A stretch of 64,000 bases of DNA from Thiocapsa bogorovii. GTDB lineage: Bacteria; Pseudomonadota; Gammaproteobacteria; Chromatiales; Chromatiaceae. The stretch spans positions 4,461,501-4,525,500 of the forward strand of contig NZ_CP089309.1 in the NCBI RefSeq assembly GCF_021228795.1, in the 5' to 3' direction. The notes beneath the pieces are model-generated. The model did not search any database. It was not told the DNA's origin and was given only the letters and a program-made list of their open reading frames with translations. Shown here piece after piece: positions 13,299 to 19,010 of this stretch (the first letter of the stretch is position 1; each line of letters opens with the position of its first letter). The position numbers and the translations under genes were made by a program.

Positions 13299-13735
13299 TC
13301 ATTTTGGCTCACGGTGTTGGTTCGCATACACCCGAAATTCAGCCCCGAAACAGCCGAGCCACGCCTGCACCGGCTCGCCCTGGTGGACGTGGGTATTGAA
13401 GCGTGCGTCCAGTCTGACGCCGGCTTCGATCAGAAAGTGTGCGATCTCCTCGTGCAGGACCAGTCCCTCGTAGAAATCGAGATCGGAGGCCTCGACTTCG
13501 ACCGCGTTGATCTTCGGTGGCAGATCGGTGGTGCCCTTGAGCACTTCCTGCTCGAAGCCTTGGATGTCGATCTTCAGCAGCACGGCCGCGGCAGGGGTGC
13601 CGAGAAGCAGGCATCGCGACGCTTGAACGCGACCCGCAGCGCCCCGGACTCTTCCGTCCCGTAGGCCGATCGAGGCCACTGTTTGGCTTTCGCCATAGGG
13701 GTAAGAATGGCGGGGCGTTGTTGGAAGGTGCTCGT
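13299..13735 (-). pseudogene. FkbM-type methyltransferase, truncated and frameshifted (copy 2)
   Basis: The reverse strand reads AAAVLLKIDIQGFEQEVLKG, the core motif of FkbM SAM-dependent methyltransferases, then INAVEVEASDLDFYEGLVLH, NTHVHQGEPVQAWL and EFRVYANQHREPK with a stop at 13299. Upstream of the motif, family-like pieces (APSNNAP, GLRDG, VQASRC) are spread over different frames, and the N-terminal SAM-binding loop is missing. It is probably the remnant of a sugar or lipid O-methyltransferase of the polysaccharide cluster. Confidence 0.65.
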
Positions 13736-13974
13736 AAGGGGCTTCGTTGGTCGCTTTGGCCATGGTGGCAGTTGGCGCGGATCGTCTCGGCATGCGTGAC
13801 ACCGCTCCGAGACCGGGCAAGTATTCCGCGGCCGCCCGTCGACCCGTGCAAGCACTCGCCTGGGCGGCGGGCGGTACCGCAAAGGCGCCGCGGCGGCGGT
13901 GGCGAATCGGCGCCGCGAGGCGGACCGGCGCGCGAGGCGCCCTTGCAGGCGCCCCCATGAGCTGCAGACGATGA

Positions 13975-14283
13975 AAAATGACGCTTCGAGTTGGCCTTGC
14001 CCGCCCGAGCGGCGGCGCGCTTCACAGGCCGCCCGGAATCCGTCGAGTCCGAGGATGCTCAAGACCCGTCGGAAGTTGTAGCAGTGGACCACAAGGGCCG
14101 GTTCTCCCTGGACCTTCTCCAGGCCGCGGACCAGGAAGTGGTCCCAGCCCATCCAGCGCTTGAGGGTGCCGAAGGTGTGCTCGCAGAGCGCCGCTCGCGC
14201 GCGCATTGCCTCGGGGTGCTCGGCCATGCGCGCGCGATGGCCTGCGACCACATCGGCCAGCTCCGAGCGGTCGATCTGCCGGT
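13975..14283 (-). pseudogene. IS1182-type transposase, C-terminal fragment
   Basis: The reverse strand encodes VVAGHRARMAEHPEAMRARA, LCEHTFGTLKRWMGWDHFLV and VVHCYNFRRVLSILGLDGFR. These match the end of IS1182-type DDE transposases, in which the final acidic residue lies in the EHxFGTLKRWMG motif. The N-terminal two thirds are absent. It is joined directly to the preceding hypothetical gene. Confidence 0.7.
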
Positions 14284-14942
14284 AGGGGGACCGTCGCCTC
14301 GTTCAGGTCATCGAGGATGCGTTGCGCGAGGGCCGGATCGGCGCAGGCGAGCAGCCCGTTGTCCAGCGCCTCGAAGGCAATGCCCGCCTTGGCCGACTGG
14401 CGTTTGACGTACTCATGACCGTTGAGGCAAACCCGCGCGGTGTAGGGAAAGTAGGAACAGAATTTGATGAACAGGGGACCGAAGTCCGCGTCGACCAAAT
14501 AAAAGTAGTCATGGTTGCACATCACCGTCCCGCGGGTGAACCAAGGGTACGGCTGACCGGTGTGGGCGCTGATCTTCTTGATCATGCGAAAACTGGCAAA
14601 CCGCTCCTGGGCCTTGCCGATGTACAGGACACCCTCCGGTTGAGCGAAGTCGCGGAGCCGCTCGCGGGTCATGTCGTCTTTGCGCTGTACCTTGGCGAAG
14701 GTCACGATCTCCACGCCCTCGCGTTGCGCAAACCGATCGATCGCCTTGACGAAGGCGCGGCTGATCGGGGCCATCAGCACCGTGGAGGCGACCTTGGCAC
14801 CGCGATGGACCTTGAAGAAGTTGGCGACCCCGCCGCCGGTCTGCAGCCGCGGTTGATACAGGTTGAGATACAGCCGATCGATTCCTTCGAGCTCCAGCGT
14901 GACCCGATCGTTCAGCAACTCTGCGACGGTTTGGACTAACAT
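14237..14942 (-). pseudogene. Conserved hypothetical protein, 3'-truncated at an IS1182 remnant
   Basis: About 235 codons from ATG at 14942 form a coherent protein: MLVQTVAELLNDRVTLELEG, LYLNLYQPRLQTGGGVANFF, FVKAIDRFAQREGVEIVTFA, FTRGTVMCNHDYFYLVDADF and YFPYTARVCLNGHEYVKRQS. I recognise a widespread family of longer uncharacterised proteins with this opening, but no function. After LDDLNEATVPLP the sequence becomes out-of-frame transposase DNA, so the open frame down to 14022 is an artificial fusion. The C-terminal half of the protein is lost. Confidence 0.6.
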
Positions 14943-15040: not shown

Positions 15041-15775
15041 CCACGCCGGAGCCTGCACCATGACTCGTCGGTCTGAGGCGAAGCCTCGCTAGGGTCTTGA
15101 TGTGCGACATCTATCTTGACACCTGCGGGTGCGCGGCGTTTTCAGAGACGTCCGTCGACGGCATCGACCGGGAGGACGGATTTGACGTCGTACAGGATCG
15201 ACTTAGGTTTGGCCCAGCGGCGGATTCCTGACGTGCCAAGGTCGATGAAGTCGCGGTGGGCGAGGGCGAGGATGACGGCGTCGTAGCTGCCGGGCGGCGG
15301 GGGCTCGGGAAGACAGTCGAGCCCGTATTCATGCTCGGCCTCGGCGCGGTCGATCCAGGGGTCGTAGCAGTCCACGGCGATGTTGTATTCGCGCAGCGAC
15401 TGGATGATGTCGATCACGCGGGTGTTGCGCACGTCCGGGCAGTTCTCTTTGAACGCGAATCCCAGGACCAGCACGCGGCTGTTGCAGACGCCGATGCCGC
15501 CTTTGAGCATGAGTTTGACGACGGTCGAGGCGACATGGGCGCCCATGCGGTCGTTGATGCGTCGCCCGGCGAGGATGACCTCGGGGTGGTAGCCAATGGC
15601 GACGGCCTTATGGGTCAGATAGTAGGGGTCGACGCCGATGCAGTGCCCGCCGACGAGGCCGGGGCGAAAGGGGAGGAAGTTCCACTTGCTGCCGGCCGCT
15701 TCCAAGACCTCCAGGGTGTCGATGCCGAGCTTGCCGAAGATCAGGGCGAGCTCGTTCATGAGGGCGATGTTGAGA

Positions 15776-15816
<41 letters not shown>

Positions 15817-16109
15817 GCGGATGCTGCTGGCGGGGTGGGTGCCGGCGACGATGATCTCGTTGTAGAGGGCATCGACGATGGCGGCGATCTCGGGGGTGGA
15901 GCCGCTGGTGACCTTTTTGATGGTGGTGAGGCGGTGCTCGTGGTCGCCGGGGTTGATGCGCTCGGGGGAGTAGCCGAGGTGGAAGGTGTTGGTTTGATGC
16001 CCCCTCTCCCCCGGCCCCTCTCCCGCGAGGGGGGAGGGGAGGTCAGCTCCCTCGCCCCTGGCGGTGGAGGTTTGGGGAGAGGAAGTGTGGGCTCCCTCCT
16101 CCCTCGCGG

Positions 16110-18483
16110 GCTATCTATTGCCCACACTGGACACAGCCCTCAGGGCCCAGCCGGGATCGAGGGGTAGAAGATGGCGAAGGTCTCGGTGATGTCGGTAAGC
16201 CGGTTCAGGCCACGCCACAGCACGGTGGCCCCGGGATCGCCGTCGCCGTTGCGCCCGAGAAAGCCGCCGAGCCGGGCGACCATGCGCATGGCCTCGCCGA
16301 GGCTCGGCGGGGTCTGCGGCGGGGTGGGCGAGCGCTGATGATGGCAGGCCAGGGCCTGCCACTCGGCCTCCTCGAAGAAGACCGTGCAGGGGATGTCCGG
16401 GGTCTCGCGCCCGCGTTTGGCCAGATCCATCACCCGCCAGGCGACGACCAGATCGATGGCCAGACACGCCTGCAGGCTGTCGGCATCGCCGAGGCGGCGA
16501 TCCTCGATGCGGCAGCCGCTTTTGAGGGTGCGGTGAAACACCTCGATGTTCCAGCGCGCGGCGTACCAGCGCAGGCGCTCGAGCGCCTCCTCCAGGGTCG
16601 TGGTCGGCACCGTGGTGAGCAACAGCCACTCGATGGGCTCTTGGTCCTGCGGCGGGTTGATCTCTCGGGCATCAATGGCCCACAGCCTCAGGGGTGCCGC
16701 GCCCTTGAGCCGCTTGGGCGGTTGCAGTTCGATCGGGACGGCGCGCAGCTCCAACGCCGCGGTGCGCGCGGGTCGGCCGCCGCGCCCGGGGATGTGCAGC
16801 ACACAGCCGCCGAGCACCGGTTGGCGGGGCAACAGCTCCCACAGCGGCTGGATCTCGTCCTCGGCGTCGACCTGGCGCTGGGTGGTGCGGCTGGCGCGCA
16901 CCAGCAGATGCGTCCCGGCCGGATCGGCGCTGGCGGCCTGAAACAGCTCATGGATGTCCGCCTCGCGATCGGCGATGTTGACCAGGCGGGTCTGCGGGCA
17001 CAGCGTCTGGACCTCGGCGGTGCGTTGGAAACTCTTCAACCAGCGGTGGCTTTCCTTCTCGGCGATGGGTCGCTCCTTGCGTGCCTTGGCCTGCCCGGTC
17101 TGCTGTGGGTCACGCGCCCAGACCTGGATGTCGATCAGGCCCAGCGGGATGCCCTCGGGGGTGAGCGCCAGGCTGTCGTGCAGCTTCAGCCCTTGGGCGC
17201 CGTCGCGGCGGGTGTTGATCGGCCCCAGTCCGGTGGTGGCGGCATGGGCATCGTAATTGAGGCTGGTGGTGTCCTGGGCGATCAGCACCAGCGACTGCGC
17301 GGCGATGCGCGCCGCGGTGGCTTCGTAATGGGGATGGAGGAGCGTCTGCAGGTCCACTTGAGGATTGTGCAAAAATCGATACGCCGCTTTGACCTGATGG
17401 GGGGCGCCATCCAACGCCGTGGCGAGGGTGGCGGTGGGATGGGCGCCGAACGCCTCGGCCAAGCCGATCAGGCGCGGGCGCAACCGTGCATCGGGGAAGT
17501 CCACCCGGGCGAACTCCTGCTCCGCCCAGGAGCCCGTCGGCGCCGCCGGTGGCGCCAGCCGCAGCACGGGCGCCGGGCGCCGACACAACGGCGCGCGCCA
17601 CTCACGCGTGAGCGCCAGCACGTAGACGGCCTTGTGGGCGCGCCCGCCGCTGTTGGTGCGATCCTCGCGGCCGCGTCCGGTCGTCTCCCCCAGACGCTGC
17701 CAGTTGGCCGCCTTGTAGACCGTGCCGGCATGCTGCGCCTCGTCCACGAAGGTCTCGAGCACCAGCGGGGTGATGCCGTAGCGCACCGGCCAGTCGGCCT
17801 GTACCCGCGCCGCGGCCAGCCCCAGCACGTGCGAGCCCAGATTGGGCACCGCGATGCTCGGCAGGATGAGAAACCGGCTATTGGCCACCACCCGGTTGAG
17901 GTTCGCGCGCCGTGCATGCGCACACCAGCCGATCCACTCATCGCGTGCGGCCAGCTGCCAGGCCGCCGCGCTGAACGCCAAGGCCCCGAGCCAGCCGACC
18001 ACCGGGGAGCGGATCAGATAGCGTTGTTGCGCGCCGCACAACGGACCGCCACCCAACGGATGGTACGACGTGAGCATGCGCCGGTACAGCAGGGCGTGTT
18101 CTCGATCCTCCACCGCGACCAGCTCGATCGGGCCGAGCGCCTCCAGCGGACCACTGAAGACCGGCGCCTCGAACGGCTCGAGCACCGCGACCGGGCGCGC
18201 CTGCGGCGCCGCGCGGCGGGCCGCGGGGAGTACCACCAGCGCGCGTCGCTCCAGCTCCACCAACGCCTTGCGGCAACTGACCTCCTGCGCCCGCCCGTCG
18301 GCACCGAACCACTCCAGCCACCCGCAGACTTGGCGCGACAGCGCGCTGCGCGTCACGCCGGGCTCGGCTGCCGCGGCTCGGATGCGCGCGATGATCGCGC
18401 CGGTGAATGTCCGCCCGAAGAGGTGCATGGGGGCGGACGATACCCGTAATCAGATACAGTGTCCAGTGTGGGTAAAAGATAGC
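16110..18483 (-). mobile_element. IS4-type insertion sequence, intact, 2,374 bp
   Basis: The terminal inverted repeats are GCTATCTATTGCCCACACTG at 16110 and, on the reverse strand at 18483, GCTATCTTTTACCCACACTG, with matches continuing through GACAC. They are flanked by a 7-bp direct repeat CTCGCGG at 16103-16109 and 18484-18490, the target duplication. One transposase gene fills the element. Clean ends and duplication indicate a recent insertion. Confidence 0.9.
16140..18428 (-). CDS. IS4-family transposase with N-terminal DUF4338 (DruA-like) domain
   Basis: A 762-residue protein. Residues 1-290 are DUF4338: FGRTFTGAIIARIRAAAAEP, SRQVCGWLEWFGADG, VVGWLGALAFSAAAWQLAAR, VVANSRFLILPSIAVPNLGS and GITPLVLETFVDEAQHAGTV, then YKAANWQRLGETTGRGREDR. 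This domain is known as DruA of the Druantia phage-defence system and also occurs with transposases. Residues 320-762 are an IS4 transposase: LVLIAQDTTSLNYD (D), RLVNIADREADIHELF (D) and the Y-R-E-K signature RWNIEVFHRTLKSGCRIEDR. It should move the element by cut-and-paste. The DUF4338 part may bind DNA; its job here is unknown. The frame is intact. Confidence 0.85.
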   Translation of the reverse strand: MHLFGRTFTGAIIARIRAAAAEPGVTRSALSRQVCGWLEWFGADGRAQEVSCRKALVELERRALVVLPAARRAAPQARPVAVLEPFEAPVFSGPLEALGPIELVAVEDREHALLYRRMLTSYHPLGGGPLCGAQQRYLIRSPVVGWLGALAFSAAAWQLAARDEWIGWCAHARRANLNRVVANSRFLILPSIAVPNLGSHVLGLAAARVQADWPVRYGITPLVLETFVDEAQHAGTVYKAANWQRLGETTGRGREDRTNSGGRAHKAVYVLALTREWRAPLCRRPAPVLRLAPPAAPTGSWAEQEFARVDFPDARLRPRLIGLAEAFGAHPTATLATALDGAPHQVKAAYRFLHNPQVDLQTLLHPHYEATAARIAAQSLVLIAQDTTSLNYDAHAATTGLGPINTRRDGAQGLKLHDSLALTPEGIPLGLIDIQVWARDPQQTGQAKARKERPIAEKESHRWLKSFQRTAEVQTLCPQTRLVNIADREADIHELFQAASADPAGTHLLVRASRTTQRQVDAEDEIQPLWELLPRQPVLGGCVLHIPGRGGRPARTAALELRAVPIELQPPKRLKGAAPLRLWAIDAREINPPQDQEPIEWLLLTTVPTTTLEEALERLRWYAARWNIEVFHRTLKSGCRIEDRRLGDADSLQACLAIDLVVAWRVMDLAKRGRETPDIPCTVFFEEAEWQALACHHQRSPTPPQTPPSLGEAMRMVARLGGFLGRNGDGDPGATVLWRGLNRLTDITETFAIFYPSIPAGP

Positions 18484-19010
18484 CTCGCGGGGGAGGGCCG
18501 GGGAGAGGGGGATGACAGGTACCGAAGCCCGGAATGCCGCTCCAAGACCGGGGCGCAGTCCTCCTCCGTGCAGCCGGGGTAGACGGTGGATTCGTAGATG
18601 ACCAGGTCGCCGGGTTTGAGGACCTGGCCGACGGTCTCGGAGGCTTTGAGCAGGGGCGTCAGGTCGGGCCGCTTGTAGTCGTCGACCGGGGTGGGCACGG
18701 TGACAATGAAGATGCGACAGGGGCGCAGGGCGTCGCGGTCGCCGGTGTAGGTGAGATGTCGCGCGGCGGCCAGATCCTCGGAGGAGGTTTCGCGGGTGCC
18801 GTCGTGACCGGCTTGCAGCTCGGCGATACGGGCTCGGTTGATGTCGAACCCGATCACGGGGCGATGTTTGGCGAACTCCACCGCAAGCGGCAGGCCGACA
18901 TAGCCGAGGCCGATGATGGCGATGGGGGTGTCGGGGTCCGTGAGATGGGCGAGGTTCTGGTCCATTGGATCTCGGGTCCGTACGTCTTGGACTGCCTTCC
19001 GGATTGGTGT

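Follow-up and report, generated by a model that had tools for sequence, protein, structure and literature searches.

What does a domain named after a phage-defence protein do in the transposase of an insertion sequence (IS)? This question is raised by a locus of Thiocapsa bogorovii (contig NZ_CP089309.1, positions 4,461,501 to 4,525,500), a stretch of 64,000 nucleotides that is called the window here and whose own numbering is used below. The element concerned, a Tn5-like insertion sequence of the IS4 family, has moved recently, and its transposase is extended at the N-terminus by a GNAT domain of the Mom/DruA type. In the samples searched, this domain accompanies eight types of DDE transposase, either fused to the transposase or encoded by a neighbouring gene. 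Elements of this type are known, and the fusion is a variant of them; what surprises is a promoter box, CTGGACA, shared among elements that carry the domain.

Insertion sequence and its transposase

The element is complete, of the IS50/Tn5-like kind, and occupies 2372 bp (16111-18482). Its terminal inverted repeats, defined by sequence comparison of the ends, lie at 16111-16134 (left, plus strand) and 18459-18482 (right, minus strand) and match at 22 of 24 positions; the left one includes CTGGACA at 16127-16133. The 9-bp direct repeat CCTCGCGGG stands on the plus strand at 16102-16110 and 18483-18491 as the target-site duplication. A second copy (G000:C1:4681208-4683579) has 100% identity over 2372 bp and its own 9-bp repeat, GGAAAACGC, which differs from CCTCGCGGG, and exact occurrences of CCCACACTGGACAC in the genome are restricted to the four ends of both copies. 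Since identical copies are found at two sites, each with a separate duplication, the transposition was recent. Terminal inverted repeats with a 9-bp target duplication, as required for the IS4 family, are present in two copies with two different 9-bp repeats.

The single gene of the element (16140-18428, minus strand) starts with ATG and encodes a protein of 762 residues uninterrupted by stops. Residues 300-358 (17355-17531, minus strand, as for all parts of the protein) match Pfam Tnp_DNA_bind, the Tn5-type end-binding domain, with an E of 2.3e-16. Residues 359-660 (16449-17354) form the DDE core (D386, D487, E629), located by NCBIfam, alignment and structure matches, and residues 661-748 (16185-16448) match the Tn5-type dimerisation domain of Pfam, Dimer_Tnp_Tn5 (E 6.9e-18). 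The whole protein matches the NCBIfam IS4 transposase model NF033590 with an E of 6.1e-123, the sequence of Tn5 transposase (1muh) matches at query residues 299-690 (E 1e-37), and the whole-protein model (mean pLDDT 86.0) gives target TM-scores of 0.83-0.85 with Tn5 transposase structures. The IS4 signature is Y-x2-R-x3-E-x6-K, and D386, D487, Y622, R625, E629 and K636 are invariant in all 17 fused proteins aligned. The features that define an IS4-family transposase, namely a DDE core with the YREK signature, an N-terminal end-binding domain and a C-terminal Tn5 dimerisation domain, are therefore all found. An earlier note on this DNA, made from the sequence alone, had placed the element correctly to within one base at each end, and its description of an intact IS4-type transposase with a full D-D-E core is borne out by the NF033590 match and the invariant catalytic residues.

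Because the Tn5-type protein is whole from about residue 299, the first 298 residues are an addition. Tn5/IS50 (1muh, 4dm0) shares with the window element the end-binding domain, the DDE core with YREK, the C-terminal dimerisation domain and the 9-bp target duplication, whereas the window protein has about 298 additional N-terminal residues and the terminal repeats differ. Chance or mis-assembly was excluded as the source of the fusion: a scan of GTDB genomes confirmed at least 567 loci, the best 80 of which we used, and 16 of the 80 have the same fusion as one long open reading frame (ORF) with 34-51% identity to the window's, and there is the second identical copy besides.

Identity of the N-terminal domain

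The added part comprises two pieces. Predicted secondary structure and an AlphaFold2 model suggest that residues 1-90 (18159-18428) are a three-helix winged-helix-like piece, while Pfam, the model and profile alignments assign residues 97-285 (17574-18140) to a GNAT domain of the Mom/DruA kind. The earlier note had likened about 290 N-terminal residues to DUF4338. A profile search agrees as far as Pfam DruA (PF14236) is concerned, with an E of 5.5e-33 and 114.8 bits against a cut-off of 27, but the match (profile positions 45-228 of 297) is confined to residues 96-260, and residues 1-90 are a separate piece.

The window gene is not a Druantia gene. The Druantia-specific DruA model of PADLOC (PDLC00002) should be matched over its length by a Druantia DruA; it matches the window protein over 49 residues only (E 0.0083, 13.3 bits), as against 1e-92 to 1.2e-196 for the stand-alone DruA proteins L069, L070 and L071. 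Instead of an operon with druB-druE, the window has a single-gene insertion sequence inside a disrupted gene.

The model of residues 1-296, based on an alignment of 72 domains (seven of the 80 loci were dropped as incomplete, in addition to L225 and L264), has a mean pLDDT of 92.6 and shows the helical piece followed by an alpha/beta domain. The top structural match in the PDB is Mom of phage Mu (8bv8_B; Z 15.0, root-mean-square deviation 3.4, 163 aligned residues), and the next entry has a Z of 12.9, so the GNAT fold is closest to that of Mom; the matches listed span residues 97-277, and the helical piece was barely probed by that search. At the sequence level the link emerges only between profiles. 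The profile of the 72 IS-type domains matches nine Mom proteins with an E of 1.1e-9 over 170 columns (hhalign) and eight DruA proteins with an E of 2.1e-10 over 136 columns, while the profile of the nine Mom proteins does not match that of the eight DruA proteins (E 0.075). The direct single-sequence comparison with Mu Mom is weak (E 0.048, probability 1.1), and nothing credible emerged when the profile of the domain was run against PDB sequences (best E 0.8). The PHROG family of Mom-like DNA modification proteins is matched by the window domain (4.2e-5), L092 (1.2e-6) and L259 (1.9e-6).

Although the 72 aligned domains are only 33-49% identical to the window's, H123, R185, Y238, N242 and G247 are invariant (72/72 each), 71 domains have Ser at position 199, and 70 have an Asp or a Glu at position 229. 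In the hhalign alignment H123, R185, S199, the acidic residue 229, Y238, N242 and G247 stand opposite Mom residues conserved in nine or eight of the nine Mom proteins. In the numbering of the GenBank record, which is used here for Mom, its nine conserved residues H48, R101, N111, S114, D139, G146, Y149, N153 and G158 correspond to H123, R185, N196, S199, D229, G235, Y238, N242 and G247 of the window protein, all of which are present. Opposite S199 stands the Mom serine (residue 114 in GenBank numbering) that has been changed to Ala in 8bv8, a structure whose title reads inactive mutant S124A. In the eight DruA proteins neither the His nor the Ser is found at the positions aligned to H123 and S199 (0/8 each); the DruA alignment is unsure toward its C-terminal end, which concerns the Tyr and Asn equivalents.

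The IS form is thus related to both proteins in different ways. With Mu Mom (8bv8) it shares the GNAT fold and the H, R, S, acidic, G, Y, N and G positions; it differs in having an RD..IGW segment, common to the IS type and DruA and not in Mom, and usually an N-terminal helical piece, and in falling below the cut-off of the Pfam Mom model. With DruA of type I Druantia (E. coli druABCDE, L270) it shares the G..RYL(V/I) and RD..IGW region, whereas DruA, of about 400 residues, is encoded by its own gene in the druABCDE operon and is without the His and Ser equivalents in all eight proteins. The label DruA is correct at the Pfam level and misleading on function, for which Mom is the better guide. 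According to passages of one source, Mom-family GNATs move an acyl group to adenine N6 (PMC7824862). In PMC10853773 DUF4338 has already been termed a GNAT domain, and passages of that paper, which are silent on insertion sequences, describe DUF4338/GNAT fused to DndF, a defence ATPase and not a transposase.

Transposase partners and element ends

Since the scan patterns came from an alignment of IS4-, ISAs1-, ISKra4-type and solo domains, the partner frequencies given here are no census. By similarity to exemplars, 22 of the 80 loci have an IS4 partner (16 as one long ORF), 20 an IS66 partner and four an ISKra4 partner. Among the other 34, family models recognised IS701 (L260 above the cut-off, L255 below), IS1634 (L231) and IS1182 (L223, below its cut-off), the last two types with one locus each, and five related ORFs that cluster together belong to the DDE_Tnp_1_assoc group, judging from the two tested. 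No transposase was recognised in the remaining 25 loci, whose neighbours were run against the family models in part. The domain is fused to an ISAs1 transposase in L081, L084, L086 and L092, and its gene adjoins an ISKra4 gene in L091 and an IS66 gene in L085. The proposal that DUF4338/DruA-type domains travel as parts of insertion sequences is therefore supported and can be widened. PF14236 is present in 17 of 369 genomes of the window's class, and whole-protein matches were obtained in 33 of 398 genomes drawn from the phylum, often via the transposase half alone.

On a tree of 87 domains, in which some labels come from similarity alone, the partner label changes 14 times, compared with a minimum of 7 and a shuffled mean of 33.0, and this indicates that partners have been long retained yet repeatedly swapped. 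Element ends were sought for 39 loci of the IS4, IS66, ISKra4, IS701, IS1634, IS1182 and DDE_Tnp_1_assoc types. The domain lies within terminal repeats of 20/20 with a 9 bp duplication in the split IS4 element L074, and within terminal repeats with an 8 bp duplication in the IS66 elements L216 and L266. The same holds for the ISAs1 fusion L081, with an 8 bp duplication and three copies, the others being 98.2 and 99.7% identical to L081. Shorter or less clear repeats with a duplication were found in L208, L239, L223 and L250, and repeats without duplication for example in L259 (ISKra4, 20/20) and L211; in the rest of the 39 scanned loci nothing exceeded the shuffled background. The duplications of L236, L253 and L229 were discounted, because they are partly the repeat itself extending outward. 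For the IS701, IS1634, IS1182 and DDE_Tnp_1_assoc loci the association is one of adjacency of domain and transposase, without secure ends.

In split forms whose two genes overlap, an ATG falls on the stop codon of the first gene in 10 of 19 chosen pairs, which suggests coupled translation, reinitiation being the preferred mechanism. A programmed frameshift between the split genes was rejected, since a crude slippery-like string occurs in only 3 of the 19 overlaps. We also scanned 28 transposase-less loci. L220 (4498-5796) has terminal repeats, a 9-bp duplication and a DruA-type gene alone, and L217 (4158-5304) and L267 (2724-3865) are small elements with a DruA-type gene only, with repeats of 19/20 and 18/20 and no duplication. 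The other transposase-less loci gave nothing above the shuffled maximum, several contigs ending too soon to tell.

Plasmids seem to carry the domain rarely (2 of 72,556 records; L236 domain query, E 1e-5). On a Thiodictyon plasmid (L283:4986-9758), genes for an IS91-family transposase and an integrase stand between the DUF4338 gene and that of an IS4 transposase, which looks like the invasion of a split element. The domain was not found in a phage set with two queries, and viral contigs queried with the whole protein gave no match. An alignment search of viral contigs, which kept 80 of 109 confirmed places, indicated that many of L115-L188 encode more distant relatives. Four viral relatives were tested: L144 has a clear resemblance to Mom (PHROG E 6.8e-23), and L109, L115 and L131 have a weaker one. 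Such distant relatives could bridge Mom and the IS form. In the open-access literature, as far as it was seen, there is no account of insertion sequences with a DruA- or Mom-type domain; ISfinder, Pfam architecture pages, preprints and subscription papers lay outside the search, and fusions of this kind may be recorded in them.

CTGGACA promoter box

In the window, a promoter scan predicts a -35 box, CTGGACA, at 18460-18466 on the minus strand, inside the right terminal repeat, and a -10 box, TATCGT, at 18437-18442, 17 bp from the -35 box and 8 nucleotides ahead of the ATG. For counting this box, we set aside eight of the 80 loci, in which the start of the contig is too near, and with the window added there are 73. 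CTGGACA was found after looking and was not predicted; the later tests were made on further loci, on the IS66 gene order and on DruA-less controls.

The box lies upstream of the domain's gene in 28 of the 73 loci, and the next 7-mer of the same composition, one-base shifts aside, in 6. On the opposite strand it occurs in 0/73, and at eight other offsets in 0-2 of 39-79 loci. A -10-like hexamer follows downstream, with a spacing of 17 in 23 of the 28 cases, and CTGGACA is therefore taken as a -35 box; the usual TTGACA is found in three of the 73 loci. Sorted by partner, the box is present in 12/19 IS4, 4/4 ISKra4, 1/2 IS701, 1/1 IS1634, 1/1 IS1182, 1/5 DDE_Tnp_1_assoc and 1/18 IS66 loci, and in 7/23 with no known partner. 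In elements whose IS66 gene comes first, it stands ahead of the IS66 gene (7 of 13). When a longer stretch was searched in 21 further loci, CTGGACA was found in 8 (shuffled mean 0.54, maximum 3), one of them, L074, having been spotted by eye beforehand. Outside the box the flanks are otherwise unrelated (median identity 0.29), so common descent of the DNA fails to explain what is shared.

The DruA-less controls, read on the correct strand, contain CTGGACA within 300 bases upstream in 1 of 30 IS66 loci and 0 of 10 IS4 loci, and within 1500 bases in 3/30 and 1/10, respectively, with L314 and L326 among them being broken or partial genes; in none of these 30 and 10 does a box with a -10 at the right distance occur. 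With loci treated as independent, Fisher p for DruA-carrying versus DruA-less elements is 0.0004 (300 bases) and 0.004 (1500 bases) for IS66 and 0.001 for IS4. In L318 the box lies 866 bases upstream, ahead of that locus's own DruA gene. No box was found in five DruA-less IS4 loci, partly the same as the controls (0/5), in six stand-alone DruA genes (0/6), or in the five best viral loci, L109-L113, on four contigs (0/5).

The ISAs1 fusions are without the N-terminal helical piece and still have the box in 3 of 4 tested (3 of 5 with L093, grouped by the tree), so the GNAT core rather than the helical piece is implicated in the association. The base after CTGGACA is C or T in 22 of the 28 cases. 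The target of Mom is described as (C/G)A(C/G)N(C/T), and GACAC and GACAT within CTGGACA(C/T) fit this pattern, an agreement to which we give little weight. In the window (18426-18442), L189, L192, L204, L208, L215, L229 and L260 the next ATG, a putative start in the loci outside the window, lies 6-8 nucleotides past the -10 box, and the mRNA may therefore be leaderless.

Function of the domain

The explanation that we favour, with somewhat less than even confidence, is that the domain is an active Mom-type acyltransferase modifying DNA, the likeliest target being an adenine within CTGGACA; in this way the element would mark and tune its own promoter. DNA rather than protein is suggested as the substrate because the nearest structure is Mom and because unrelated partner proteins share a DNA box. 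IS10 and IS50 are controlled by Dam adenine methylation, so that control by a mark on a base has a precedent. A newly arrived copy would be unmarked, transcribed and able to jump; as the protein accumulated, the promoter would become marked and transposition would fall. In fused forms the mark would be tied to each transposase molecule, and in split forms the stop-start overlap would often tie the production of both proteins. On this reading the Mom-like domain would act on the promoter of its own element and probably limit transposition.

Several observations weigh against this explanation. The usual substrates of GNAT folds are proteins and small molecules, and against the Pfam Mom model the window protein reaches an E of 0.016 and 15.3 bits, under the cut-off of 27.1 for membership. 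All nine Mom positions occur together in 31 of the 72 IS-type domains, mainly since N196 and D229 vary, and the equivalent of Mom N111 is N in only 46 of the 72. Transposases of the same families exist without DruA, and the domain is thus unneeded for the cut-and-paste chemistry. CTGGACA is missing from 45 of the 73 discovery loci, 6 of the 13 IS66-first elements and 13 of the 21 further loci, and only 4 of the 7 IS66-first boxes have TAnnnT at 16-18 bases; it could be merely an unusual but good promoter. In the control comparison, the DruA-less loci come from the window's phylum and the DruA-carrying ones from many phyla, and DruA-less IS66 elements may have extra genes in front, so that 300 bases may miss their promoter, for which the 1500-base count allows.

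An alternative that we consider unlikely is that the domain is an anti-restriction passenger as in phage Mu, by which the DNA of the element or of the cell would be broadly modified to survive restriction in a new host, the box being a promoter only. Mu Mom being the closest structural match speaks for it, and passages of two sources (PMC7824862; PMC6483171) have Mom-family GNATs acting on adenine N6, which is taken as protecting phage DNA. However, plasmids and phages are where anti-restriction should pay most, and the domain looks rare on the former and was not found in our set of the latter; it would also be left unexplained why a single -35 box accompanies the domain in different transposase families and arrangements of the genes.

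It is quite improbable, in our estimate, that the domain is a protein acetyltransferase tuning the transposase or a host factor. GNATs commonly acetylate proteins, the further structural matches include NatF (Z 12.9) and RimI (Z 12.6), and in fused forms the attached transposase could be the substrate. Mom nevertheless stands 2.1 Z units above the next entry and the conserved set is mostly that of Mom, and with unrelated transposase partners a shared substrate would have to be a host protein. We give a similarly small chance to a non-catalytic DNA-binding or targeting module, in which a winged helix and a dead GNAT would recognise the promoter of the element or a target structure. The predicted helical N-terminal piece, the link with one DNA motif and the relative Druantia DruA, which by alignment is without His and Ser, are all in its favour. 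A dead enzyme would not, however, need catalytic-type residues that are near invariant in 72 domains so diverged from the window's, and the ISAs1 fusions keep the motif in 3/4 without the helical piece. That the box is the DruA gene's own promoter, carried along on capture by a new element, is very improbable: the box is found near the start of DruA in IS4, ISKra4, ISAs1 and other loci, but IS66-first loci have it ahead of IS66 (7/13) while it is ahead of DruA in 1/18 IS66 loci, and the flanks have no identity beyond the box and the -10.

The earlier note had also proposed that the domain binds the ends of the insertion sequence. As a main role this finds no support, since the protein has a separate, complete Tn5-type end-binding domain and the associated DNA site is a -35 box; end binding may still occur, because the box of the window lies inside the terminal repeat.

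Target site and neighbouring genes

The gene disrupted by the element (minus strand, 15142-16000 and 18450-18965) reads by eye from its translation as a nucleotide-sugar dehydrogenase, and a diverged stretch similar to it is found at G000:C1:5385628-5385944. The target at 15999-16110 is GC-rich repeated DNA, about 40 bases of which recur at ten listed places in the genome with 87-98% identity (40 of 181 candidates were scored). ORFs at 13574-14942, adjoining the disrupted gene, contain a transposase-like stretch by eye and are perhaps another broken insertion sequence.

Origin of DruA and implications

In trees with Mom as outgroup, the eight DruA rows group in a single clade (100/100) placed among the IS rows, with long branches flagged, and fused forms nested inside defence forms were not seen. 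Three longer proteins annotated as DruA (L273-L275) were left out of the tree, the motif search having missed their core. The suggestion of the earlier note that the IS form was the evolutionary source of DruA is accordingly allowed, with DruA placed inside the IS forms, but its direction is not established, since the IS rows as one clade were not rejected (p-AU 0.353 in the approximately unbiased test). Stand-alone DruA genes in L071:3269-7397, L072 and L073 are followed by two genes, unlike druABCDE; the second of these in L071, the only locus tested with PADLOC, is HerA-like.

A wider scheme would hold that the module in at least eight DDE types is a Mom-type DNA-modifying enzyme with its target CTGGACA as the -35 box, a self-marking switch by which a fresh copy jumps and is then silenced, and that Druantia DruA is a derivative that lost the Mom residues and turned to defence. 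Taken as a whole, we regard this scheme as rather doubtful. The finding joins a transposon part, the DNA-modifying enzyme Mom of Mu and the unexplained Druantia protein DruA, which have hitherto been studied apart, and it supplies a catalytic hypothesis for DUF4338 with named residues. Caution is advised in annotation, because what is labelled DUF4338 or 'DruA' can be an insertion sequence instead of a defence system. The box common to unrelated elements makes the self-regulation model of transposition directly testable.

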